A stretch of 64,000 bases of DNA. Origin: Lysobacteraceae bacterium (GTDB lineage: Bacteria > Bdellovibrionota > UBA1018 > JAGTJX01). Below are positions 933 through 35,754 of this stretch, piece by piece (position 1 is the stretch's first letter; the number at the start of each line of letters is the position of its first letter). Under the pieces are notes generated by a model, which was not told where the DNA came from, ran no database searches, and saw only the letters and a program-made list of their open reading frames with translations. Location: positions 586,358 to 650,357 of the forward strand of contig JAGTJX010000001.1 in NCBI GenBank assembly GCA_023657465.1, in the 5' to 3' direction. A program made the position numbers and the translations under genes.

Positions 933-2579
933 CTATTGCTGCCTAGCGATCATTTCATCGACAAAAATACGGTAAAACACGATCTCAGATAGGCCTATAA
1001 TCGCAATAATAGGAATTAAATAAGGTGAGTGAGCTTTCTCAAGAGTGTGGAAGATAAGGTCTGTAGTGAGAAACGTAGGATAGAGAGGAGCTCCGATTGC
1101 AAACAGTCCAAAAAACATTACTATTTCAGGCTTTAGCTTCTTTAAAAAAAAAATGCTCATTAGCGCTAAAGAACATAGTCCTTGATGTAAATAGCTCATG
1201 CTACCTGTAAGAATAATTCCACCATTTAACTGAGCCATAACAAGAACGACGATTCTAAAAACAGTTCTATCTTGAGCAAGTGCTGAAAAAAGCAGATAAA
1301 CCCAAATACAGAGTTGGACTTCGATTTGAGAAAAAAAGCTCAGTCCCAATAATGCAAAGGCTTCAATACCTCCAGTTTTACTTTGAATTTTTCTTATAAG
1401 ATCAATTACAAAATAAAAAGGTTTAATGATCAAAAACTGAATCATCTCTCCTAAGTAAAACTCTCTTTGTGCAGCAACGTAAAGTCTCAGTCTTAAAGCC
1501 TCTGGAAGGACTTTTTCGTAGAAGGCTTGATTGCCCTTAAACTCTTCTCCTGGTGCTAACCAGCGAGCAGATCTGAAGTCATCGATAATTGCTCCAGCTC
1601 TTAAGAACTGAACCGTACGAAGTGAAGCATTGGCAAGTAGATGAATCCAAGCAAGATTCGTGAAACCTAATCCAATTTCTGTCCAGATGATTCCCACTTG
1701 AGCAAGAGTTGAATAAGCGAGAACACCTTTTGCGCTGGCTTGAACTCTCCCCACCCAGGTTGCATACACTAGGGTGATTAATCCAACTGCAATCATGATC
1801 TGAAAGTTGACGGGGTTCGACTCAAAAAGAGAAAGATACTTCAGTATAATAAATGGACCCGTATGAATGGAAAGTGCTCCATAAAAAATTGCACTAGAAG
1901 GCGTGGGTCCTTCCATGGCTCGTGGTAACCAGCGAGTGAAGGGGACTTGAGCGGATTTACCAAAGGCTGCAAATAGTAAGCAGAGTGAGGCGAGTTGTGG
2001 ATTGTGCTCAAGAAAAACGATCGCCAAAAGAAATCCGCAGTCTGAGATTCTGTAGTGAGTTAGCGCAATTAAGGAATGCCATAGAGGACTGGGTTTTTCC
2101 CAGAAAAACGCAATGAGTAGTACTGAAGTGAGCCCTGTTATTTCCCAACCTAAAAAAGTAAAATTGATTACTCCAGCCCAACAAACAATATTCACTCCAA
2201 GTTGGAAAAGAAGCATTAAAAAATAAAACCTATGATAGCCGCGTTCACGGTGTAGGTAGTCACGTGAAAAGCGACCAATGATCATGAGTAGAAGTGAGGA
2301 CAAGATAGCCCAAGCACCGCTCCAGAATGTAGCTTGTAAAGTGATTGGGAAATGAAAGTCATCTAAGTGAATGAGGTTGCCTAGTTCAATGACTTGCTCA
2401 GTAGATGCCGACTTAGAAAAAATAATCGCATTCATCAGTAGTAAAGCAATCTGTGTAGTAGCTGCAATAGAGCGTGTGATTTTCTCACTCCAGAGATCAA
2501 ATGCTGCGCCAACTCCAATTAAGATTGCGACACCTAGATTAAATGAAAGTAAACTGGTGAAGAGAGTGTTTAGTTCCAT
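933..2579 (-). CDS. dabB: DabB: NuoL-like membrane subunit of the DAB inorganic-carbon transporter
   Basis: 548 residues, almost entirely hydrophobic, with roughly 14 membrane spans. It belongs to the proton-translocating NADH dehydrogenase subunit family (NuoL/MrpA type). The central stretch with FGKSAQVPFTRWLPRAMEGP is the conserved transmembrane core that carries the antiporter-type lysine and the W-L-P-A-M-x-x-P-T signature. No other complex I gene is nearby. It overlaps the end of dabA by 10 nt, which is the known arrangement for the two-component DAB system, where DabB couples an ion gradient to DabA-driven hydration of CO2 to bicarbonate. The length suits a DabB rather than full NuoL (about 610). 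An Mrp antiporter subunit is the main alternative, but DabA next door argues against it. Confidence 0.9.
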   Translation of the reverse strand: MELNTLFTSLLSFNLGVAILIGVGAAFDLWSEKITRSIAATTQIALLLMNAIIFSKSASTEQVIELGNLIHLDDFHFPITLQATFWSGAWAILSSLLLMIIGRFSRDYLHRERGYHRFYFLMLLFQLGVNIVCWAGVINFTFLGWEITGLTSVLLIAFFWEKPSPLWHSLIALTHYRISDCGFLLAIVFLEHNPQLASLCLLFAAFGKSAQVPFTRWLPRAMEGPTPSSAIFYGALSIHTGPFIILKYLSLFESNPVNFQIMIAVGLITLVYATWVGRVQASAKGVLAYSTLAQVGIIWTEIGLGFTNLAWIHLLANASLRTVQFLRAGAIIDDFRSARWLAPGEEFKGNQAFYEKVLPEALRLRLYVAAQREFYLGEMIQFLIIKPFYFVIDLIRKIQSKTGGIEAFALLGLSFFSQIEVQLCIWVYLLFSALAQDRTVFRIVVLVMAQLNGGIILTGSMSYLHQGLCSLALMSIFFLKKLKPEIVMFFGLFAIGAPLYPTFLTTDLIFHTLEKAHSPYLIPIIAIIGLSEIVFYRIFVDEMIARQQ

Positions 2580-4912
2580 TGGGTGATCATTTCCTTAGTA
2601 GTAGGGTCGATGCGTGCGTAGAGCACCCAGCCTAGATCAATATACTCAGCAAACTTTGGCACATTGATTCTCAGGGTTTCGATTTGTTTTTCAGTAGCTT
2701 CGAGTGCCATGAGTAGACGTACGGGTTCGTGAAGTTCGATCATCTGGAGTGGAAGGCCTGTTCGCAAGTCTCCGAATACTCCGTTTGATACCCCAAGTAG
2801 ACTCATGACGTTGTGAGGGAGTTTCGTTCCGCATCCATACTTTTCATTGTCCATCTTGGAGAAGAAGTATTCTAGGTTGATTCCAGAAACGACAGGGAGA
2901 ATTGCATTCACGAGTCCTGAAAGAAACTTGGTTTCAGTGTCGATTCCAGAATCATAAGAGATGAGGAAAGCCCTTCTGTCGAAGAATTTTCCTTTTGTGG
3001 TTTCACGCTGGCCAATGAAACAAACTGCGTTCGTCGCATGACCCAATTCAGGCCTAGGTTCAGTGTAACTCTCTGATCGAGATTGGACATGACTGAGGCT
3101 TAACTTAGGGTCTTTTGTTTCTGGAGCAGATTCGAATCTGAAGCAACGCTCGTTAGCATTGTTCTCTCTTGCCTTCTTTAATATTGGGAATACTTCATTT
3201 ACGAGAGTTTGGTCTTCTACGGATAGATCAAAAAAAGAAATTTCATCAGAGCAGGTGTCGTGAAGCCCTGGAATAAAGCGAGTATTAGCTGGAATATGAA
3301 TACCCTTTTTTGCGAGTATCTCTCTTACAGTAGGATCGTTGGTAGCGATGACAAACGCTCTTGAGTTTGGGTCGCCCTTCTTACCACCACAAGCTCCGCA
3401 GTCATAGGCAGAGATGTGGGGGTTATTCTGACTTGTGGATCCATGAGCAATGACAAAGATGGCCTTACCGAAGTGAGTTCTTAGACCTGCAGTCATCATG
3501 AGACCATAGACACGGTTGGCAATCTCCTCATGAGGAAGTCCTAAGAGTTGGCTGAATTCAAGTTTGGTTTTGACCTCGCCAATAAAAAGTTTGTTAGTAG
3601 TACGACTTAAATAAGCGCTCACTCTCGGGAAGTGAACTCTGAGGACAAGAGAGAGAGGGCTTAAGATTCCTAATCCTAAGCTCCAAAAAGCTCCTATGAC
3701 TGAAGTCCTAGTTGAGTTGTAAAAGTTTTTGGAAACTCTCTTAAACCATTTTTTGTAAGTGACATTCTTAACTTGGTCTTCACGCGCAACTTCTCTCACT
3801 AATCCTTTAGGATTGACTACAGGTGGACAGTAGTTGAGAGAGTCTTGACTGGTGAGTCCTTGGAAGCACATGTCGATTCCGAAGAATCCTGCGACTCCGA
3901 ATGTTTCGATGTTTGTAGAGAGTCCTTCTATGTGTCTGCGCATGGATTCACTGCGATCATCAATGCAGAAAAGCATCTGATACTCTGGCTTCTCTAAGGT
4001 AGTTTTGCTTAAGCGCTTGGAGAATTCCTTCTTCACATCGTCGATGTATTTTTTCTCATATGCGAGATGAAATATTTTTTTGATATCATCTAATTCAGTA
4101 GAGTTTTGAGCATCTGATTGTTTTGTTCTTGAAGCTTGAGAAGGTGTATCAGCGAGTATCGCCTCACTGACTGTTCCTACAATCGCTGCAAAGTCGATCA
4201 CAATAGGTGTTTTCTTCTGGTAGGGAATGAGAAGTGGCTTACGCTCGAACACATGAATCATTCCTGCCCAACCAGGGAGCATGAAGAGCCAGTCTTTCAA
4301 TGCTTCGTGAGAGTCTAAATTTGATTTTGAAATGAGAAGATCCAGTTGTTCTTCTGAGGATTCATGAAGCGATATGTTTTTAATTTTACGAGCTAGGCCA
4401 AAGCTTTGAAGTTGAATCCATTTTCTGAACGCAGGCCAGATTGATCCTTGAGAAAACTCCATTGGCCAGTGTGAAACCCCTTGATCCATATAAGCCGATA
4501 CGAATGGAACAATCAGGTTTTGTAATTCAGATTGAAAAGACAAGCCTGTCTTATGCTCATAGTGTCTTACTCTAAAAAGATGAACATCTGAGAACGCAGA
4601 GTTTTCTTTCATAGAGAGATTTGAAAGCTTTTCTGCATGGTTAATCAGATTTATTACAGTAACATTTTTTCCATGAAGCTTCAGTGACCAACTCAGTTCT
4701 TTCTCTGTGATTCGGTCTTTCTTCACTTCATTCAAATAGAATGAAAGTGGCATGAGATACTGAGCACCGTAAAACTGAGACGCTTCTTTCAAAGCCTGGA
4801 AAAAATCTTTCCCCTCAAACCCATGAAGAGTGTTGTGGTGGATAAACATCTGGATGGGGCCCTGGTCAGGCAGATAATGACCTAAGTGTTTAACTTCTTC
4901 GTGAATATTCAT
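2570..4912 (-). CDS. dabA: DabA: UPF0753/DUF2309 cytoplasmic zinc subunit of the DAB inorganic-carbon transporter
   Basis: 780 residues with the hallmarks of the DUF2309 family: FIHHNTLHGFEG near residue 25, the FCIDDRSE motif near residue 315 (beta-carbonic-anhydrase-like Cys and Asp), AHGS near residue 490, and YDCGACGG near residue 503, which supplies the second Cys. Together these give the Cys-Asp-His-Cys zinc site known from DabA. The family role is vectorial CO2 hydration, trapping bicarbonate in the cytoplasm when driven by DabB. The start ATG overlaps the porin stop (ATGA), so the genes are translationally coupled. All expected active-site residues are present, so the protein is probably functional. 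No rubisco or carboxysome gene is in view; supply of bicarbonate to carboxylases in a heterotroph is the inferred role. Confidence 0.92.
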   Translation of the reverse strand: MNIHEEVKHLGHYLPDQGPIQMFIHHNTLHGFEGKDFFQALKEASQFYGAQYLMPLSFYLNEVKKDRITEKELSWSLKLHGKNVTVINLINHAEKLSNLSMKENSAFSDVHLFRVRHYEHKTGLSFQSELQNLIVPFVSAYMDQGVSHWPMEFSQGSIWPAFRKWIQLQSFGLARKIKNISLHESSEEQLDLLISKSNLDSHEALKDWLFMLPGWAGMIHVFERKPLLIPYQKKTPIVIDFAAIVGTVSEAILADTPSQASRTKQSDAQNSTELDDIKKIFHLAYEKKYIDDVKKEFSKRLSKTTLEKPEYQMLFCIDDRSESMRRHIEGLSTNIETFGVAGFFGIDMCFQGLTSQDSLNYCPPVVNPKGLVREVAREDQVKNVTYKKWFKRVSKNFYNSTRTSVIGAFWSLGLGILSPLSLVLRVHFPRVSAYLSRTTNKLFIGEVKTKLEFSQLLGLPHEEIANRVYGLMMTAGLRTHFGKAIFVIAHGSTSQNNPHISAYDCGACGGKKGDPNSRAFVIATNDPTVREILAKKGIHIPANTRFIPGLHDTCSDEISFFDLSVEDQTLVNEVFPILKKARENNANERCFRFESAPETKDPKLSLSHVQSRSESYTEPRPELGHATNAVCFIGQRETTKGKFFDRRAFLISYDSGIDTETKFLSGLVNAILPVVSGINLEYFFSKMDNEKYGCGTKLPHNVMSLLGVSNGVFGDLRTGLPLQMIELHEPVRLLMALEATEKQIETLRINVPKFAEYIDLGWVLYARIDPTTKEMITQWN

Positions 4913-6051
4913 AAGGTGAGCATTAAACCTGTTCCTAATATAAATGCCTGATCTTCAGTATTAATCCCCGAAGATAATTCAGCTGTTCTTAATTTATGTC
5001 GAGTGGATAAGAAACTGAGTTCTGAAAACACTTTCACTTTTGGAGCAAGTTCATGATCAAATCCAATTCTTGCAGTTAAGTTTCTCTCAATACCAGGTAG
5101 TTGTGTGTTGAGTGTGTAACTACCAGGACTTCCAGAATAGGCAGCTGCAACCATTTCAGGTTGAATTGCAGCAGCGAACCCCATGCCGAGAAACACTCCC
5201 GTACTGGATGAGAGTTGATATTTGGGTGTGAAGACCGCTCCACATTCTGAAACATCGTTGCCGATTCTTCCATAACTGAGTGAGAGCATGCCTAGATTCG
5301 AAAGATTCTTACCGCAATAGACTTTTGCCTTAGTGGATAGGGGTGAATCTTTGCTTGAGGATTCTTCGTACGCAACGGCACCCGCACTCATGATACGATC
5401 TGAACTATTCACATCTGTGAGAGTTAAAGCACCTAAGAGTGTCACTCCAAAACGAATAGAGTCAGTGCTCCACTGAGCTTGCAACTCAGTCACAGGAAGG
5501 AGTGACAGCTCTGTGGTTGAATCTATAGATGTATTGTTTGCAGCGGGAAGTCCGAAGGAAACAGCAATCTGAAAGGATTCTATTTTCTTTTTCAACGTAA
5601 ACTGAGTTCTCATAAACCCCGAATCACCCGCAGAGAAGAAATGACCGACAAAGTTATAAGTATAAGGGTGAACGCCGCTATTGAATAAATCCCAATCCTG
5701 CCCTGCAAGTAGTGAGTAGCCATCGCCAAGAGCAAGATCAATTGATGCTCTCCTCACACGTGGAAGAGCAGCGGTGGTAGGACTTGATTTTGTAAAATCA
5801 ATAAAGTCAAACTCCAGAACACCTTTACCCAAAGTTTCGATAGGAAAATCAAAACCTAGCCTACTCTGACCTACTTGGAAGCTGGAAGTAGGTAATGAAG
5901 GTCTGACTGATAGGACTGGATTGGCCGCTGCTGTAAAAGCAGTGAGATTATTGCGATTGAAAGTATCGATCGCAGAATCACTGATATAAAAAGTAGGCAA
6001 AATAAATCCGTAGATTCCAAATAGGTATCGGATCGATTGTGAATTTTTCAT
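4909..6051 (-). CDS. Porin-like outer-membrane beta-barrel protein of the carbon-uptake operon
   Basis: 380 residues. A hydrophobic N-terminal segment (IRYLFGIYGFILPTF) could act as an export signal. The remainder alternates polar and hydrophobic residues in many short strands, with Gly/Ser/Thr/Asn-rich turns, and it ends in the amphipathic strand FILGTGLMLTL. The phrase RRASIDLALGDGYSLLAGQDWDLFN resembles DcaP-like or Gram-negative porins. It sits 1 nt after sulP and overlaps dabA by 4 nt, so it is co-translated with the inner-membrane carbon transporters. I infer an outer-membrane diffusion channel for the operon substrate. The exact porin family was not established. The signal peptide is atypical and could be misread. 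Confidence 0.7.
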   Translation of the reverse strand: MKNSQSIRYLFGIYGFILPTFYISDSAIDTFNRNNLTAFTAAANPVLSVRPSLPTSSFQVGQSRLGFDFPIETLGKGVLEFDFIDFTKSSPTTAALPRVRRASIDLALGDGYSLLAGQDWDLFNSGVHPYTYNFVGHFFSAGDSGFMRTQFTLKKKIESFQIAVSFGLPAANNTSIDSTTELSLLPVTELQAQWSTDSIRFGVTLLGALTLTDVNSSDRIMSAGAVAYEESSSKDSPLSTKAKVYCGKNLSNLGMLSLSYGRIGNDVSECGAVFTPKYQLSSSTGVFLGMGFAAAIQPEMVAAAYSGSPGSYTLNTQLPGIERNLTARIGFDHELAPKVKVFSELSFLSTRHKLRTAELSSGINTEDQAFILGTGLMLTL

Positions 6052-6052
6052 T

Positions 6053-7588
6053 TTATTTCTTTCTTTTTTCTACTCCGATGAGTTCTACACGAGAGCCAGC
6101 AGATTCTCTCTCTCTTGCAAATTGAAAGAGTTTTTGTTCCACGGTGCGATCCATCACAGTGACTTCTGAGAAATCAAGTACTAGGTTCTTATCAGCGCTT
6201 AATTTCTTTAATCTGCTTTTGAGAATCAGGTAATTAGTAAAAACCGCAGCGCCTTTAGTTTTGAAGGTAACAGTGTTTCCTTCAGTACTTGATATCGTTT
6301 TGAGAGTGACGAACTCAATTGGCTTTAATCCTGCTGAAAAATGAAGCAAGAGTTTAAGGAAAATACCCGTCCCCACTCCAATCAGCAAATCGGTGAATAC
6401 AGTAACAATAGTTGTCGCTGTGTAGAGAAAGAACTGATCTGTTCCTGTTTCGAGCGCGTGCTTAAAATGTTTTGGCGAGGCGAGATTGTAACCTGTGAAA
6501 ACAAGAATCGCAGCGAGAGAAGCAAGAGGGATCTGGTGAAGGAGATTGGGGATCAATATGAGGAACATGAGCATGAACGCTCCATGTGCGAAGTTTGACC
6601 AACCGGACTTGGCACCATTATTGATGTTGTTTGAGCTACGAACAATTTCAGCAATCATCGGTAATCCACCAATGAATCCTGAAATAGCTGTGCCAAACCC
6701 AACTGCGGCTAAGTCCTTATTGAGATTTGATTTTCTCTTTTGCTTATCAAGTAGATCGACTGCTGAAGCAGAGAGGAGAGTCTCTAAACCTTGTACAAGA
6801 GTAAGTGTGATCACCCAACCCCAGAACACTCGAGAACCACTCTGACTCCATTCAGGATTCGTAATTCCCGCAAAAATACTTTGAGGCAAAGTGACTAGGA
6901 ACTTAGGTCCAAGATCATACTCGTGATGGTCTAAGAATAAGTACTTGTGTTGATGTTCGAGGTCGAACACACGGTCAAAAATCATTCCCACGATCACCAC
7001 TACGAGAGGAGCGGGAATTCTTTTCACCCATTTCCAAGGCATTTTTGGCCATAAAATAAGAAGAAGTAAACTCACTACTCCAATGACCGCGATCTCAGGA
7101 TTCATCACACTGAGACTGTGAGGAATTTCTGCTAAGAGGTGCGCAGGTTCCTTTCCGGTCGGACTTACGCCTAACATGATGTGAGCTTGCTTCGAGAAAA
7201 TAATCACTCCGATTGCAGCGAGCATCCCGTGTACGACCGATTCTGGGAAGAAGTCACTGAGTTCTCCTCCTTTGAGCAATCCTGCAATGAAGAGGAGTAA
7301 TCCTGAAACAGTGATAACGGCGAGAGTCGCTCTATAACCTGCCATCGGATCACCGTGTCCGAGAGCTTCAACCGCTCCTAGCACAATGACGATGAGACCC
7401 GCTGCCGGTCCATTGATAGTGACGAACGAGCCGCTGATTCTGGAGACTAGTAGTCCCCCGATGATCGCACTGTAGAGACCTGCTACAGGTGGAAACCCTG
7501 AAGCCATGGCAATTCCCAGTGAAAGTGGGAGTGCGATTAAGAATGTTACGAATCCTGCGACAATGTCCTGCTTATGAATTTTCTGCAT
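6053..7588 (-). CDS. SulP-family anion transporter with C-terminal STAS domain (probable bicarbonate/sulfate permease)
   Basis: 511 residues. It starts with QDIVAGFVTFLIALPLSLGI and has about ten to twelve membrane spans up to residue 410. The SulP hallmarks are visible: ALPLSLGIAMASGFPPVAGLYSAI in the first spans (only the order is quoted) and GTAISGFIGGLPMIAEIVRSS mid-protein. A short STAS domain follows (VLDFSEVTVMDRTVEQKL, residues about 470-490). SulP proteins carry sulfate, bicarbonate or other anions in symport with sodium or protons. The coupling to dabAB points to bicarbonate, but this is inference. It is separated from the porin by one base and preceded by a small exported protein gene 60 bp upstream. 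The sequence looks intact and the length is normal. Confidence 0.88.
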   Translation of the reverse strand: MQKIHKQDIVAGFVTFLIALPLSLGIAMASGFPPVAGLYSAIIGGLLVSRISGSFVTINGPAAGLIVIVLGAVEALGHGDPMAGYRATLAVITVSGLLLFIAGLLKGGELSDFFPESVVHGMLAAIGVIIFSKQAHIMLGVSPTGKEPAHLLAEIPHSLSVMNPEIAVIGVVSLLLLILWPKMPWKWVKRIPAPLVVVIVGMIFDRVFDLEHQHKYLFLDHHEYDLGPKFLVTLPQSIFAGITNPEWSQSGSRVFWGWVITLTLVQGLETLLSASAVDLLDKQKRKSNLNKDLAAVGFGTAISGFIGGLPMIAEIVRSSNNINNGAKSGWSNFAHGAFMLMFLILIPNLLHQIPLASLAAILVFTGYNLASPKHFKHALETGTDQFFLYTATTIVTVFTDLLIGVGTGIFLKLLLHFSAGLKPIEFVTLKTISSTEGNTVTFKTKGAAVFTNYLILKSRLKKLSADKNLVLDFSEVTVMDRTVEQKLFQFARERESAGSRVELIGVEKRKK

Positions 7589-29220: not shown

Positions 29221-30027
29221 TTAAAATGTGTATTTAGAGTGATGAAAAATTATTCCATCTGAAATATTAAAATTAGAAGGTATAAATTTTTTATATCTTG
29301 ATCTACTTAATAGCGCGATTACTATGCAATTCGAAGCGATTGCGCCACTCATCCATTTAGGATCATTGGGAGATAACTTTTCTAATTCATTCATTGTTAA
29401 ACTCATGAGATTTTTATGTATTTTTAAAAAATCACTTTTCTTGCAAAATCCAGAATAAATTGGGCAATTCAATTTTTTGAGATATTTTTTTTCTCCACCT
29501 GTATAAACAAATAATCCAAGAGGTTTTTTTATTTTTTTTAAAAGCCAGTCAATACATTCGCTAATTTTTCTTTCCTTAATTTCTGAATCAAGTTTAAACT
29601 TCTTGTTTAAGTCAGATATTCCGAATTTCAGCAGAAGTTCTGCGCCATCTTTTGAGATAATTTGAATGCTTCCACCACCAACATTAATAATATGATCCAC
29701 ATTAGGTGCTGATATAGCTTTTGTTATTAATTGCGCTTCTTTTCTTTGAGACAATGTTTGGTAATTAATATTGAAATCTGTGCAAACTCGCTCAACTATT
29801 TTTCTCGCAGTAACGTTTCTTCTCATTGCTGCGGTACCAACCGCAATAATCCTTGCAGTGGATTTTTTATATTCACTAATTGCAGATCTAATATTAGTCC
29901 GAATATATTTTTCTGATGGTTTCTTATCTAAAATTCGCCATGTAGTTGTTTTAAGGGCTTTAATTTTTTTATCATATAAATAAGTTTTAATACTATGACT
30001 TCCGAGATCAAGTATAAGTGTTTTCAT
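29221..30027 (-). CDS. Ppx/GppA-family phosphatase-like protein (AT-rich)
   Basis: 268 residues of the actin-like ATPase fold. Phosphate-1 motif LILDLGSHSIKTYLYD (residue 3), VGTAAMRRNVTARKIVERV (about 63) and TLSQRKEAQLITKA (about 90) match the Ppx/GppA order, and IINVGGGSIQII (about 113) is the phosphate-2 loop. The family hydrolyses exopolyphosphate or pppGpp. In the SGxEEA-like region the first acidic residue is Lys here, so activity may differ. It is shorter than Ppx and lacks the C-terminal HD domain. It overlaps the upstream gene by 4 nt. The gene is visibly AT-rich: two 60-base rows counted by hand gave 23% and 33% GC. This suggests transfer. Confidence 0.8.
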   Translation of the reverse strand: MKTLILDLGSHSIKTYLYDKKIKALKTTTWRILDKKPSEKYIRTNIRSAISEYKKSTARIIAVGTAAMRRNVTARKIVERVCTDFNINYQTLSQRKEAQLITKAISAPNVDHIINVGGGSIQIISKDGAELLLKFGISDLNKKFKLDSEIKERKISECIDWLLKKIKKPLGLFVYTGGEKKYLKKLNCPIYSGFCKKSDFLKIHKNLMSLTMNELEKLSPNDPKWMSGAIASNCIVIALLSRSRYKKFIPSNFNISDGIIFHHSKYTF

Positions 30028-30473
30028 AAATTTATTCCTTTATATGTAGAAGCTGAGTTTAAGATCATATGCGTACTGTTCTTTTGAACCCAGTTTGGAA
30101 AAACACTTTCTAACAGCCGACAGTATCCAGATAGATTTGGATCTTTTACAGGTTCTAATGAGAGAATTTGAATGCCTTGAGATACCGCATATCCCATTTC
30201 AAATGTAGCTGCTTTACCAATGTATCCATCGACATTGGCTAAAATCAGAAACGTTGACATACGAATTTTAGCTAGAATTGAGTCTTGAAGAGTTCTTGGA
30301 TCATGTACCGGATCTTCGTTTAGAATGATAAACTCTTGACCTGGGTTAACAATTCCTTCGCTGACGGGTGCTAAGACATTTATATGCTCAGACTGAAGAA
30401 AGTTCTTAATTTCTATCATTTCTTTAAAATGTTTTCTATAGGAGCCACTAATTACTGTATTTATTGAATTCAT
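30024..30473 (-). CDS. Nucleoside 2-deoxyribosyltransferase-like protein
   Basis: 149 residues from the ATG at 30473, which has AGAGAGGA about 7 nt upstream; a TTG 30 nt earlier lacks support. The N-terminus NTVISGSYRKHFKEMIEIK is a Rossmann-like opening. IRMSTFLILANVDGYIG and then AATFEMGYAVSQGIQI give the family pattern of a nucleotide-binding loop with a catalytic Glu before GYA. Members transfer or hydrolyse 2'-deoxyribosyl or ribosyl groups on nucleosides, and related folds act in nucleotide signalling and phage defence. It is coupled by ATGA to the Ppx/GppA-like gene and shares its AT-rich composition, so the two probably function together. Confidence 0.75.
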   Translation of the reverse strand: MNSINTVISGSYRKHFKEMIEIKNFLQSEHINVLAPVSEGIVNPGQEFIILNEDPVHDPRTLQDSILAKIRMSTFLILANVDGYIGKAATFEMGYAVSQGIQILSLEPVKDPNLSGYCRLLESVFPNWVQKNSTHMILNSASTYKGINL

Positions 30474-30580
30474 ATTTTTTCCTCTCTTAAATATCTTAAG
30501 CAATGGGCATGCCAGGGTGAGAGGCGATATATTGGAGTAGGTACTGTGTTTGATAGGAGTTGTAGGGGAATGCCTACAGC

Positions 30581-31729
30581 TTATGTAGTGATGAGCCTAC
30601 GAGTCGTTCTGTAAATCATCAGAGTAGTGATCATGACCATTGCTACACCCGAATAAGTTAGGATCGCATACCTCGTGCCTATTCCATTAGCTACCAGACC
30701 GCAGGTAGACATGGCTGTGATCATGAATAGGTTACTGACTGCCTGTTGGTACGAGAAGGCAGCGCTGTGATTAGATTTTGAGACGGTTTCATGAATCCAG
30801 ATGTTGCCTAAAATCTGTCTGATATTGAGGAAGAATCCGTAACCGATCGAACACAAAATAGCTTGAGTGTAAGTGACAGACAATGAATACGCGATGATGA
30901 TCGATAGCTCCATGAAGCAACTCAACTCTAGGAAAAACAAATGAGAGCTTCTAGGAATCCAGTTGATAATCGGTCTTGTGAATAGAATAAGTGCGTTAGA
31001 CACTGCAAACAATACTCCAATCTGAGTGGAGCTGCACTTCAGTTCATACTGTGCATAGAGTGCTTCAAGCGAGAACATCGCTCCTGTTCCAAGCCAAGTC
31101 ACGCCAATAATAATGAATACAGCGAGACCTTCTTTGCTGATTTTAAATGGAATGTTTATGGACAGGGGTTCATCTGGAGATATTATTTTACTTATTTTTA
31201 TTTTTGAAAACAGTCCAGCAATCAATACGAATGAGAGCGCATCCAGTAGGAGACATTTTTCAATTCCATAAGAATTGAGTAGTAAGCCAGCGAGCGCGAA
31301 TCCTATAGTTTTCGCGATGACATCAGTCGTTTGAACGATAGTGTTGGCTGACCTGATTTCTGATTTGGAGAATACATCAGGGATCACTGCTCTCTGTAGT
31401 GGAACATAAATCCCGTAGAAAACTCCTAGCCCAAAAGCAGTCAGGATCATCAATACGCGGTTATGAGTAAAAGGAATACAGAGGAGGAGAGTGGCTGCTG
31501 ATCCCAAGTAGGAATAGATCAGCGCCTTCTTCTTAGGTAATAGGTTCAGTTTATTCTTGAAAAAAAATCCAATCACGATGCTCGGAAGATATCTACCTAC
31601 TAAGTAGAGGCTAGCCCAGACAGCGGATTGAGATTGATTCCCTAGTAGTAACAGGAACGCTAGCATCGAGAATGCATCTCCTAGTCTCGATACGAAGAGG
31701 CCGATGATGAAGAGTAGATTGGGGGTCAT
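30581..31729 (-). CDS. MFS exporter, EntS/MFS_3-like
   Basis: 382 residues with twelve predicted spans. LFVSRLGDAFSMLAFLLLLG opens the first helix, FGLGVFYGIYVPLQRAVIPDVF follows helices 3-4, and IRSANTIVQTTDVIAKTIGFALAGLLL in helix 5 is the typical pattern of the EntS-like group (macrolide and siderophore exporters). The cytoplasmic loop is short. It is the last gene of the 30.6-38.9 kb operon, overlapping the JmjC gene by ATGA. I infer export of a small molecule made or modified by the upstream enzymes. The substrate is unknown. Confidence 0.82.
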   Translation of the reverse strand: MTPNLLFIIGLFVSRLGDAFSMLAFLLLLGNQSQSAVWASLYLVGRYLPSIVIGFFFKNKLNLLPKKKALIYSYLGSAATLLLCIPFTHNRVLMILTAFGLGVFYGIYVPLQRAVIPDVFSKSEIRSANTIVQTTDVIAKTIGFALAGLLLNSYGIEKCLLLDALSFVLIAGLFSKIKISKIISPDEPLSINIPFKISKEGLAVFIIIGVTWLGTGAMFSLEALYAQYELKCSSTQIGVLFAVSNALILFTRPIINWIPRSSHLFFLELSCFMELSIIIAYSLSVTYTQAILCSIGYGFFLNIRQILGNIWIHETVSKSNHSAAFSYQQAVSNLFMITAMSTCGLVANGIGTRYAILTYSGVAMVMITTLMIYRTTRRLITT

Positions 31730-32553
31730 TTTACGGAGGTAAGGATTCTAGGTTTTGCCTTAGCTTTATCAACCCACCAGTTCACCATCAGAGATGGAGT
31801 GAGTGTCTCAACATAATGAAACCAACCAGCTGGCAAGTACAGAGTTTCATCGGGTCCACATATGAATTGTGTGTGAGTGATGTGATTTTTTTTTAACCAT
31901 TCCAATCCACCTAGTTTATTCAAATCTATGCTGCTCGTATGTAAGTCCGTCGCTAGATCAGGAAAAGGTACACTCACTTCCAAGTCAGGATAGTGCTGAA
32001 TCGGAACAAGTGTCCAACGCTTGGATCCAACAATATGAACAGCAAAATTGTCTAATCCATCGGTGTGCAGTGGTGTGATGGCTCCAGAAGGGCCTAACCA
32101 TAGACTGGGTTGCATAAACAAGTTTTGTGAATAGAGGTCTGGAGGTAATGCCCAAGCGGGAAGAAGTGAATCTTGAGAAAGTTTGTAATTGCCCAGATAA
32201 CCAATTTTATCAATCTGGTTATTTTTTTTTAGATTCAATAAATATTCTGAAAATTGCGATTCATAAGTTTTGCGATTATACGCATACTCTTTGGGATCGC
32301 TGAAGTTTCCAATTCTAACTTGAATTTTTTTGTCATTAAACTGTTCTAACCAGCGGATTACTTCGGATGACTCTAGCGATAATTGAGAATCTAGATTTGA
32401 CTGAATAATGATGGGAAGATTTGTTTCTTTTTTTACTTCTCTTTTAAACTCTATTGGCGTGCAGTGAATGATTTTACAGTCCTCTTGTCGAATATGAGGA
32501 GACTTTTCATAAAGTTGAGATAAAAACCCTAGCGAATGAATTTTTTTATTCAT
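31726..32553 (-). CDS. JmjC/cupin-like Fe(II)-2-oxoglutarate-dependent hydroxylase
   Basis: 275 residues. The core of the cupin_8/JmjC family is clear: LWLGPSGAITPLHTDGLDNF (HxD iron ligands, about residue 160), VHIVGSKRWTLVP, and TLYLPAGWFHYVETL (second His, about 245), followed by NWW. Family members hydroxylate proteins (FIH, YcfD) or amino acids and peptides. The N-terminal 120 residues are less conserved. It overlaps the lipocalin-like gene by 8 nt and the MFS gene by 4 nt. With a carboxylate-amine ligase and exporter in the same operon, tailoring of a small peptide-like product is plausible, but a protein substrate cannot be excluded. Confidence 0.85.
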   Translation of the reverse strand: MNKKIHSLGFLSQLYEKSPHIRQEDCKIIHCTPIEFKREVKKETNLPIIIQSNLDSQLSLESSEVIRWLEQFNDKKIQVRIGNFSDPKEYAYNRKTYESQFSEYLLNLKKNNQIDKIGYLGNYKLSQDSLLPAWALPPDLYSQNLFMQPSLWLGPSGAITPLHTDGLDNFAVHIVGSKRWTLVPIQHYPDLEVSVPFPDLATDLHTSSIDLNKLGGLEWLKKNHITHTQFICGPDETLYLPAGWFHYVETLTPSLMVNWWVDKAKAKPRILTSVK

Positions 32554-32923
32554 TTGAATACTCGTAAATTTTTTTCCAAAGCACGACGTGATTAGTTTGA
32601 TTTTTGTTTTCAGTAGACAGAGTGAGGAGGTCGTTTTCTATTTTAACTTTTCTGATGAGTTCTTGATTTTTATAGTCTTCTAGTATTGTTTCAGTGACAT
32701 GATGAATGACTTTCTCGCTTTCGGTACGATATGTGCCACTATACGCAATTACGTCTCTACCGAAAGTACCTGAGCCCTGATCTCTCATGATAGAGACATT
32801 CATATGTGAATTGGGGTGGTAGATGAGTAGTCCACGGAAGCCTGTACCTGTATCGATCTCTTTTCCATTAGCATCATAACTTTTGTATTCAATGAGCTGA
32901 TAAGCTCCAGCAATACTCTTCAT
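32546..32923 (-). CDS. Lipocalin-like domain protein
   Basis: 125 residues without signal peptide. SIAGAYQLIEYKSYDANGKEI is a typical first strand of small bacterial lipocalin-like proteins (Lipocalin_5 type). FRGLLIYHPNSHMNVSIMRDQ, AYSGTYR and LIRKVKIENDLLTLST supply further strands, and the end LWKKI fits. Relatives appear in biosynthetic clusters as small-molecule binding or cyclase-like proteins, though many have no known role. Translationally coupled on both sides (ATGA with the cyclase gene upstream, 8-nt overlap downstream). Confidence 0.75.
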   Translation of the reverse strand: MKSIAGAYQLIEYKSYDANGKEIDTGTGFRGLLIYHPNSHMNVSIMRDQGSGTFGRDVIAYSGTYRTESEKVIHHVTETILEDYKNQELIRKVKIENDLLTLSTENKNQTNHVVLWKKIYEYSNE

Positions 32924-35754
32924 GCTGCCCTTTCGTGTTTCTCTGTATCAGGAAGGCTGAGTTCATAGGGCGTTTCAAGTGAGCCAGGTACGGGTTTTTC
33001 GATGACACGACTTTTCAGTGAGCTCCAACCAGAGAGGATATTTCCGAGTACAAAAAGCACTCCTGATTCTGTTTTACAAAGTTGCTCAAACTTTGAACAT
33101 ACGGCCATTGATGATCCTACGATGCTCCAAGCTGAGGTGACATTCGTACGGATGTCTCTCGATATATCTCCGTGAACAAGACAAGCTCGGAAAGAATTAT
33201 TTTTCTCCAAATGAATATATCCAGGGAATCGTGCAATCATTTTTTCGTAAACATATAAACGAACTTCATCATAGAGAGAAGCCAGTAGAATTGAATCAAC
33301 TGAGCTTTTTGCGCCGGCACGAGTGTAATAAAACGCATCCCAAACAGTCATTTGGAGTTCGAAGCCATACTTAGTTCCTATTTTTTCCAACTCTGCATTC
33401 ATGTTTTCTGAAAATGAAAGCCATTGTTCTGCTCCGAAATGCTGTGAGATTTTTGTACTACCGCGGATGTCGATCATGAAGAGATATCCGGTTTCATCTA
33501 TTCGTGCATTCTCTCCATTGAGAAGTTTGGAGAGAGCTTTTTTAGGTACAAATCCAGTGAGTGCTTTTTTAGCTGTTTCCGTTTCATGTGAAATCATGAC
33601 TGTATGGACCGCGGCTCGGATAGTGGAAGCAATCAGTTGTAGGGCGTCTTCGATCGGTGCAGTATAGGTACCCACGACTGGTGACTCTAGCCAGAGGACT
33701 CCCCACGGGGATGATTTTTCACTGCTATGATCGAATATTGGAATCGCAGCACAGCTTCGAGTTTGATTCAGTGAGAAGATTTCATTTGAAGTGGGGTGAA
33801 CTACATTACTAATCCATTGAGTGTCACCAATAGTGACAATTTTTTCTTTATTGATGGCGAGAGGGAGAGGTCCTTGTTCGTTATTTTTGTTCGCAAAGAA
33901 TCTCAAGCCTCTATACAGAGTTTCAGCCTTGGGGTTATGACCGCTCATTTGTTGAATGAGGATTTCTCGGTTTTCAGCGTTGAATCGACCAATAAGGCAT
34001 GCGCTCTTCAGTTCAAAGGAGAGCAGTTTTGAAATTCGATCCATAAGGATCTCTAGATTAGTTTCATGGAGTGAAAATTCTTCAATAGATTTTGAGATTT
34101 TTTGAGCATGATACATGCTTTCTGTTTGTTGAAGAGACATTTTGGATTTGATGAATGTCTCAAAAAATGGAAGCAGTGAATTCATCACAGTTCTAAACTC
34201 GATATCTCGAATATTGCCAGTATGGTTTTCGGAGTCGTAATCAGTAAAAGCCACAGCACCTATTGCATCTCCATTCGAAAAAACAGGAATGACAGAGAAT
34301 GGGCTTTTGCTCTTGTAGCGTTGGAGTTCACCTTTTCTGATATCGACAGCAAGTGAGCTACCGGGATCAATATGCCAGAGAGATGTTTTGGTAGACATGC
34401 AGTGTGCAACAAAAGGAGGAAGCGAGGAAAGAAGGTCAGACTCAATCTTTTTCTGCCCAGATAAGTAACGAATGACGTGGGTAGGACCACCGTAGGAGAA
34501 TAAAAACACAGAGAATCTCTCAACATTAAAATTTTTACAAAAATGAGCAACACCTTCGGGCAGTTCTAGGGACTGTTTTCTGTCGTTGGATTGATTTTTT
34601 AGATCAGATACCCAGCGGAGACTTGTGAAAAGAGATGCCACTCGTTTTAGATATTCAGAAAAAACTACTGACTGATAGGAGAGTAAAAAAAGGAAAGTCA
34701 TGATCGATGATGGCAGGTAGAGATTGTAGTTTTGAAACTTGAGTCCATCAGATAGTACGGCTAGAGAGTAGAATCCGAGAAGAAATGGAGTAGGGGAGCG
34801 AACAGCGAGTAGAAAAAACACTGCTCCAGAGGCAATAAGTAGATAACCATAATAAACACCGTATGAGGGTATGCAGACATAAATAAAAGCTAGAATGTGC
34901 GCAACAGTAAAATTAAAGAACAGATTCTTATTCAAAAATTTACTCAAGATGTTCTTATTGTTCAGTGTTGTGAATTTTGTAAAAAAAGGAACCATCAGAG
35001 CCGACATTGCTAGCCATACCATAAATCTAACAGCGACTTCATTTTGTAATAACTCTGGAATCAAAGGTTGAATCATTCCTGATCTAAGACTTAAGTAAAT
35101 TATTAGCTCCCACGATATTGCCCCAATATTGCGTGAAATGTTAAGCAGTTTTCCTAAAAATATTGTTAATACTGAAATGGTAAAAAACGCGCCAACTAGT
35201 AAAAGAAGTAGTGGAGTTAGAAAAATTTCGGTTAGTTTTCTGATTTTCTGGAGAGTTTTAAAATCTGAATAAATCAAAGGGCCGTCGATATGGCCTGTTC
35301 TTTGTGTATAGCCACTCGGTGAGTAAGATTGAATTTTGATTGTAGTTTCTTTGCATGTACTGGCATCTATGATTTGATATATGCTAAGCGATTCGATTGG
35401 AGATTGTTCTGTTAATTGTTTAGTTTGAGATTGAAGAGGTATATTTGTATCTCCGCAGAATGCACTATAAGAAAAAATCATAATTCCAATACCTATATGT
35501 GAATAATTACTTTTTCTTGGAATAATGTATTCATCTCGACATTGGAGATTTTTTTTAATGAGATCTTCGTCTAGCCCTGCTTGACAATTAGATTTAAATT
35601 TTTTCAGATCTCCCATCCATTCAACTTCATTACTCCATTTAAGGTGTGAGTAATTACCGACTAATGTAGGGCCGTATCCAATCACGATGCAAGCAATTCC
35701 TATACTTAGATGTAACCAGTGTTTTCGAATGAGATTAACAATTTTCAAATTCAC
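32920..35754 (-). CDS. Membrane-bound GAF-domain class III adenylate/guanylate cyclase
   Basis: 944 residues from a GTG start overlapping the previous stop (GTGA). One N-terminal span (about 14-32), a periplasmic segment of about 150 residues, then a bundle of about seven spans (190-370). Two GAF-like regions follow (about 390-530 and 560-735). The class III catalytic domain spans about 750-925: FMIDIRGSTKI carries the first metal Asp and VWDAFYYTR the second. LVHGDISRDIRTNVTSAWSIVGSSM fits the rest of the fold. It makes cAMP (or cGMP) in response to membrane and GAF inputs. It lies in a tightly coupled operon with a PilZ protein, and the divergent PP2C gene encodes a cyclic-nucleotide domain. 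Confidence 0.88.
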   Translation of the reverse strand: MNLKIVNLIRKHWLHLSIGIACIVIGYGPTLVGNYSHLKWSNEVEWMGDLKKFKSNCQAGLDEDLIKKNLQCRDEYIIPRKSNYSHIGIGIMIFSYSAFCGDTNIPLQSQTKQLTEQSPIESLSIYQIIDASTCKETTIKIQSYSPSGYTQRTGHIDGPLIYSDFKTLQKIRKLTEIFLTPLLLLLVGAFFTISVLTIFLGKLLNISRNIGAISWELIIYLSLRSGMIQPLIPELLQNEVAVRFMVWLAMSALMVPFFTKFTTLNNKNILSKFLNKNLFFNFTVAHILAFIYVCIPSYGVYYGYLLIASGAVFFLLAVRSPTPFLLGFYSLAVLSDGLKFQNYNLYLPSSIMTFLFLLSYQSVVFSEYLKRVASLFTSLRWVSDLKNQSNDRKQSLELPEGVAHFCKNFNVERFSVFLFSYGGPTHVIRYLSGQKKIESDLLSSLPPFVAHCMSTKTSLWHIDPGSSLAVDIRKGELQRYKSKSPFSVIPVFSNGDAIGAVAFTDYDSENHTGNIRDIEFRTVMNSLLPFFETFIKSKMSLQQTESMYHAQKISKSIEEFSLHETNLEILMDRISKLLSFELKSACLIGRFNAENREILIQQMSGHNPKAETLYRGLRFFANKNNEQGPLPLAINKEKIVTIGDTQWISNVVHPTSNEIFSLNQTRSCAAIPIFDHSSEKSSPWGVLWLESPVVGTYTAPIEDALQLIASTIRAAVHTVMISHETETAKKALTGFVPKKALSKLLNGENARIDETGYLFMIDIRGSTKISQHFGAEQWLSFSENMNAELEKIGTKYGFELQMTVWDAFYYTRAGAKSSVDSILLASLYDEVRLYVYEKMIARFPGYIHLEKNNSFRACLVHGDISRDIRTNVTSAWSIVGSSMAVCSKFEQLCKTESGVLFVLGNILSGWSSLKSRVIEKPVPGSLETPYELSLPDTEKHERAA

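Follow-up and report, generated by a model that had tools for sequence, protein, structure and literature searches.

Two small adjoining genes, the first encoding a protein that resembles nucleoside deoxyribosyltransferases (NDT) and the second a Ppx/GppA-like protein, form a real module that has spread horizontally; a transporter gene often accompanies it, and its Ppx-like protein belongs to an altered subfamily. We found the pair in nine loci, with the NDT-like gene ahead of the Ppx-like gene on one strand in all nine. These loci span Bdellovibrionota-type genomes, a Nostoc plasmid, two Paenibacillaceae, two Actinomycetota and two other proteobacterial MAGs.

In the window, by which we mean the whole 64-kb stretch of DNA analyzed, both genes are on the minus strand. 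The gene with a predicted NDT/DNPH1 fold (30024..30473) is an open reading frame of 149 aa from its ATG, with an in-frame TTG at 30503 as a possible alternative start, and the gene with a Ppx/GppA fold (29221..30027) encodes 268 aa and carries the altered loop NxGGGSIQ. The NDT-like gene comes first and the two genes have four bases in common (30024..30027), read in the sequence as ATGA on the minus strand, a stop/start overlap that couples them. The GC content is about 0.295 for the Ppx-like gene (GC3 0.201) and 0.347 for the NDT-like gene from the ATG, or 0.340 from the TTG start (GC3 0.260). These two ORFs have the lowest GC of the 50 ORFs of at least 130 aa in the window (mean 0.432, sd 0.045). 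The overlap, the low GC and the identity of both proteins had been described in the earlier note, and all three hold, the NDT-like identity through a predicted model. No mobile-element gene was seen by Pfam scan among seven other nearby genes of the window, and the 64 kb contain no tRNA, so a tRNA-linked island is without support. The count of promoter and terminator sites was not above that in shuffles.

To describe where the pair occurs, we searched relatives, plasmids and a broad set of species. Among 192 relatives, strong matches to the NDT-like protein are found only in the genome of the window, G037 and G044, with two weak ones besides, and strong matches to the Ppx-like protein only in the genome of the window and G044, where both genes adjoin. 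In 51 other relatives the Ppx-like protein is matched only weakly (E no better than 6e-10). A tblastn search of 72,556 plasmid records found both proteins in a single record, the Nostoc commune HK-02 plasmid AP018330.1 (L037), a complete mobilizable plasmid on which the pair lies side by side in the same order as in the window. A scan of one genome per species (84,980 species) with two peptide patterns from a three-sequence NDT alignment returned at least 9 NDT loci, a number to be read as a lower bound. Six of them have a Ppx-like gene downstream, namely Paenibacillus rigui (L040), an Oligoflexia MAG (L041, the same locus as that of G044), Frigoribacterium (L042), two proteobacterial MAGs (L043 and L046) and a Propionibacteriaceae MAG (L044). 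A further pair was found in G235 (L067), from the same family as the P. rigui genome. A contig scan with the single Ppx protein gave no match though relatives exist, which indicates that this method misses members. P. rigui, Frigoribacterium and the Nostoc plasmid come from named isolates and some other carriers are MAGs. The spacing from the NDT-like to the Ppx-like gene is −22 to +197 bases in eight of the nine loci, the exception being L044, where a transporter-like gene lies between the two. Three of the 12 members of the NDT family (L039, L045 and L047) have no cassette Ppx in their genome.

For these counts, redundant entries were merged as one locus (L005, L008 and L064 with L041; L049, L059 and L068 with L040; L004 and L063 with L039), the entries L001-L003, L062 and L073 correspond to the genome of the window itself, and the family does not include L038, L006, L007 and L077, whose identity is 29-42%. 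Two of the latter show an arrangement of their own. On a Streptomyces sp. NBC_00536 plasmid (NZ_CP107820.1, L077:3965-5104), a distant NDT relative with 29-33% identity forms the N-terminal part of a protein in which a NUDIX domain and a winged helix of the NrtR type are also present, and which may thereby be linked to regulators of NAD metabolism. In G038 (L006:220-2139) a distant relative (36% over 62 residues) follows NUDIX and nucleotidyltransferase genes assigned by eye. Within the family, the NDT ORF of L044 has an in-frame N-terminal extension with the motif FDGDCAAC (5809-5997), a later start being equally possible. On AP018330.1, two further genes (L037:4303-6401) precede the pair by 3-5 kb, on the far side of transposase fragments; one encodes a short catalytic core like that of lysyl-tRNA synthetase and the other is ornithine/lysine decarboxylase-like.

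We consider the pair accessory and horizontally spread because it is nearly absent from the genomes around its carriers. With the NDT profile at E<=1e-8, and with each group including the genome that led to it, matches are found in 2 of 104 genomes of the family of L040, 1 of 299 in that of L042 and 1 of 197 in that of L044. The same profile matches 1 of 116 genomes in the phylum of L045 and 1 of 43 in the order of L043, while the Ppx profile at E<=1e-20 matches 1 of 398 in the phylum of L040. The order of the window has the NDT-like gene in 3 of 55 genomes and the pair in two of these. The GC content of the pair is below that of its flanks in eight of nine loci (by only 0.010 in L041) and above it in L067, the comparison for the window being made with the ORFs of the window. 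Three sister groups, L040/L067, L046/L037 and L042/L044, are present in both gene trees, and L046/L037 joins a proteobacterial MAG with the cyanobacterial plasmid; support is poor at the deeper nodes of the Ppx tree. The recurring sister groups agree with both genes having spread jointly by horizontal transfer. The earlier note had suggested transfer and a neighborhood search in other genomes; the nine loci, alike in order and strand and sparse around each carrier, bear out the transfer, and the pair is not core in its clade. In the literature on deoxyribosyltransferase/GppA operons and on exopolyphosphatase/GppA in anti-phage defence, we did not find the pair described.

The Ppx-like protein matches Pfam Ppx-GppA (PF02541) with E 5e-11 and 43 bits, above the gathering cut-off of 27, and it matches PDB Ppx/GppA chains in sequence at E about 1e-6. 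Its predicted model (pLDDT 90) superposes on 3mdq with Z 26.3 and rmsd 2.8 over 263 of 268 residues, and the Ppx/GppA fold spans the full length of the model. The exopolyphosphatase equivalog TIGR03706 is not reached (49 bits versus a cut-off of 307). The phosphate-2 loop is NxGGGSIQ in 9/9 cassette proteins instead of the canonical DxGGGSxE, the Asn and Gln aligning with the Asp and Glu of Aquifex Ppx. For comparison, 30 of the 34 other Ppx loci met in our searches have D..E and one has D..Q, as read from the motif-scan listing, which left three unassigned. E97, at the position of the catalytic Glu of Ppx, is invariant in the cassette family (n = 9). Judged by its sequence, the cassette protein is a separate Ppx/GppA subfamily with an altered phosphate loop. 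It shares with the exopolyphosphatase/pppGpp phosphatases of PF02541 the full-length short-form fold, as predicted, and the catalytic Glu, whereas its gene is accessory and stands alongside a separate long Ppx in its own genome. An origin as a duplicate of that Ppx was rejected, the separate Ppx being in a 498-aa frame with a weak match only (E 3e-6). Because the Asp and Glu of the loop are replaced by Asn and Gln, the protein, although a Ppx/GppA homologue, is probably no ordinary exopolyphosphatase.

The NDT-like protein is more divergent. It matches Nuc_deoxyrib_tr (PF05014) with E 0.005 and 17.4 bits, under the cut-off of 28.8, and the best score among eight family members scanned, 22.7 bits, is also under it. 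Searches of PDB sequences with the protein and its profile found no relative. Its predicted model has a pLDDT of 78, with residues 41-53 and 137-149 weakest, and most closely resembles NDTs and DNPH1 (6evs, Z 12.4, rmsd 3.0, 117 residues; 8qhr, Z 11.7, rmsd 2.9, 110 residues). This model supports an NDT/DNPH1 fold. A TIR-like reading was discarded, TIR chains appearing at Z about 10 and NDT and DNPH1 ranking higher. Across the 12 members of the family, ISGSYRKH, D64 and E92 are invariant (12/12), and motif reading places D64 and E92 at the catalytic Asp and the nucleophilic Glu.

We mapped the residues of the model onto DNPH1 by our own reading of the aligned range and the motifs. The alignment starts with residue 1 of the model on residue 18 of DNPH1, so that Y12-R13 fall on DNPH1 residues 29-30. 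I29 of DNPH1 is described as a base-contacting residue (PMC10603095), and in MilB, Phe22-Arg23 is reported to stack on the base and contact the phosphate (PMC4081090). Counted from the same start, the catalytic Tyr of DNPH1 (Y24) falls on V7, and this reading of the aligned range suggests that the tyrosine is absent from the NDT-like protein, with Val instead. The residue pattern of the model points to a nucleoside 5′-monophosphate N-glycosidase or phosphoribosyl transferase. As far as the published descriptions of the DNPH1/Rcl and MilB/BlsM N-glycosidases go, the cassette protein would share with them the predicted NDT fold, the catalytic Asp and Glu by motif reading, and likewise an aromatic or hydrophobic residue and an Arg at the base and phosphate positions. 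It differs in its identity of about 10-19%, in scoring below the Pfam cut-off, in the putative Val at the tyrosine position, and in having a Ppx-like partner.

The recurring transporter gene beside the pair had been overlooked in the earlier note. The window MFS gene (30581..31729, minus strand; MFS_1 E 5.6e-19) is on the same strand as the pair, 107 bases upstream of the NDT-like ATG, and is efflux-type by a weak NCBIfam match (TIGR00900 E 1.4e-16, below cut-off). It is the probable third component of the module. Seven of the nine loci (raw count) have an MFS-type gene next to the pair, and at least four types are represented. It directly follows the Ppx-like gene in L037, L040, L041, L043 and L042, and one small type is common to L037, L040, L041 and L043 (31-43% identical). 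An MFS_1 match at E<=0.1 is present in L037, L040, L042, L043 and the window; the L041 transporter itself matches no Pfam model and was assigned by identity to the small type, and the gene inside the L044 pair, for which Pfam gives no MFS match, was called MFS-like by eye only, on the hydrophobicity of its sequence. The L042 transporter has a weak efflux-type match, as the window transporter does. No MFS gene adjoins the pair in L046 and L067.

Other neighbours vary. In the window, a Cupin_8/JmjC-like gene (31726..32553, minus strand; Cupin_8 E 3e-23) overlaps the MFS gene, and a Lipocalin_5-like gene (32546..32923, minus strand; Lipocalin_5 E 2.4e-13) overlaps the cupin gene. Their membership in the module is uncertain; at E<=1e-10 the cupin is matched in 3 of 185 genomes, among them its own, and neither gene was seen beside the pair at other loci. 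NUDIX and adenosylhomocysteinase-like genes are present at L045, glycosyltransferase genes near L042 and L044, and a phosphodiester glycosidase in L044. With L067 left out, no gene besides the NDT, Ppx and small MFS genes is common to the loci, one kinase pair excepted, and no conserved base- or sugar-tailoring enzyme is shared. Elsewhere in the window, positions 32920-35754 encode a 944-aa protein with GAF domains by Pfam; its C-terminal part is like a class III nucleotide cyclase by eye and has no cyclase match in Pfam. Positions 933-7588 encode a complex-I-like membrane protein, a DabA/DUF2309-like protein and a SulP-type transporter, all assigned by eye, which we assume would suit an inorganic-carbon uptake cluster.

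What might the module do? We tentatively propose a small mobile module for nucleotide processing, with the pair as its core and in most cases an MFS transporter as a further part, that makes and exports a nucleobase- or nucleoside-derived compound, a reading somewhat more apt to be wrong than right. We infer the substrates, direction, product and role of the module as follows. The NDT-fold enzyme would most likely act on a nucleoside 5′-monophosphate, with Y12 stacking on the base, R13 holding the phosphate, D64 serving as acid and E92 as nucleophile, and would cleave or exchange the N-glycosidic bond. Its partner with the Ppx/GppA fold would most likely trim or bind a phosphorylated nucleotide, and the transporter would export the product, the net outcome being a nucleobase- or nucleoside-derived compound made and exported. 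The nine ordered loci, the sparse distribution, the MFS gene in 7/9 and the NDT/DNPH1-like model with its residues argue for such a module. Against it are the two loci without an MFS gene, the L044 transporter assigned by eye, the three NDT members without a cassette Ppx, the want of a common tailoring enzyme, and V7 where by our reading the DNPH1 tyrosine falls. Detoxification of a nucleoside toxin accounts for the same facts nearly as well. The pair could be a nucleotide-pool sanitiser, taken up against an environmental nucleoside toxin, in which a DNPH1-like N-glycosidase and a phosphohydrolase clear a damaged or toxic nucleotide and the base is pumped out. DNPH1, among the nearest structural matches, is described as a pool sanitiser (PMC10603095), and the NUDIX gene adjoining the L045 relative, the weak efflux-type matches of the window and L042 transporters and the sporadic spread of the pair are consistent with this. 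Damage would be universal, however, and the pair is very rare (e.g. 1/299 and 1/398 genomes). We regard this explanation as doubtful.

It is also conceivable, though we hold it unlikely, that the Ppx-like protein does not act as an enzyme but senses a nucleotide, much as yeast Rtg2p would, and regulates the NDT-like enzyme. E121, D143 and E150 of E. coli Ppx are given as equivalent positions at which mutants keep residual activity (PMC5417653), and the cassette proteins carry D-to-N and E-to-Q changes at two of the positions where only such activity is kept, the N/Q pattern being present in 9/9. Gln at the E150 position is moreover called unique to Rtg2p within its family in that source. On the other hand, E97 at the catalytic position is invariant, the general ASKHA motif is given as (D/N)xG (PMC5417653), so that Asn is tolerated, and PDB 4brd, the Q193E form of Legionella NTPDase1, implies a fold-mate with native Gln if the position is equivalent. 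The earlier note had suggested a possible defence or alarmone module. On this reading the pair would, upon infection, deplete a nucleotide or signal with one. In its favor, the two folds are both nucleotide-acting, the pair is horizontally spread, and the NDT fold list includes TIR-type chains further down (Z about 10). Neither protein matches PADLOC at E<=0.01, however, and neither phage records nor four pattern scans of IMG/VR gave a match, so a phage or prophage origin is without support. The PADLOC scan of neighbours covered 90 proteins, drawn from 121 listed neighbours and the L044 transporter; no recurrent defence gene was seen among the best 25 of 44 families matched. All but one of these 25 were single-member matches, mostly to kinase-type models, PDC-M72A being one strong single match among the pooled 90, and 20 of the 90 rescanned singly gave only a weak SduA-type match, in L037. 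A defence island was rejected for want of a PADLOC match and recurrent defence neighbours. The transporter partner also fits defence poorly, and the alarmone part is weakened, the Ppx-like protein being without two acidic residues needed by exopolyphosphatase. Defence is without support and very improbable. We favor a small metabolite pathway over it because two nucleotide enzymes appear to be co-transferred with a transporter.

Such a metabolite pathway has partial parallels. The ADG operon of Photorhabdus luminescens, a low-GC operon of five genes with dephosphorylation steps and an MFS exporter, is reported to make a nucleoside antibiotic (PMC9239236). The cassette would resemble it in its small low-GC layout, nucleotide dephosphorylation and MFS exporter; the enzymes of the operon are of the puromycin type (homologues of pur10, pur4, pur7 and pur3), and the account of them in that source names no NDT or Ppx gene. 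The likeness is one of organisation only. As in nucleoside-antibiotic clusters, an exporter-type gene stands beside the enzymes, MFS-type in the 7/9 loci, with putative export. In DmtZ-DutZ of Z-genome phages, an enzyme of the same NDT fold acting on nucleoside monophosphates is described as adjoining, or fused to, a nucleotide phosphohydrolase (PMC12884076). Those are phage genes with a dUTPase-type partner, whereas the cassette family was not found in phages.

The pair keeps its order across Cyanobacteriota, Bacillota, Actinomycetota and several proteobacterial and Bdellovibrionota lineages while being missing from nearly all relatives, and for this reason it is probably selected as a unit. 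We hypothesize further, as a rather doubtful extension of the export pathway, that it is a cross-phylum three-gene pathway, not previously described, which makes and exports a nucleotide-derived antimetabolite or signal by means of an NMP-acting NDT-fold enzyme and a Ppx/GppA descendant with a rebuilt N/Q metal site and a new activity. Both proteins are small, and their chemistry is thus directly testable. From the altered Ppx subfamily one would learn how a phosphatase fold gets rebuilt, and if the product is an exported nucleoside analogue, the pathway would be among the smallest of its kind.
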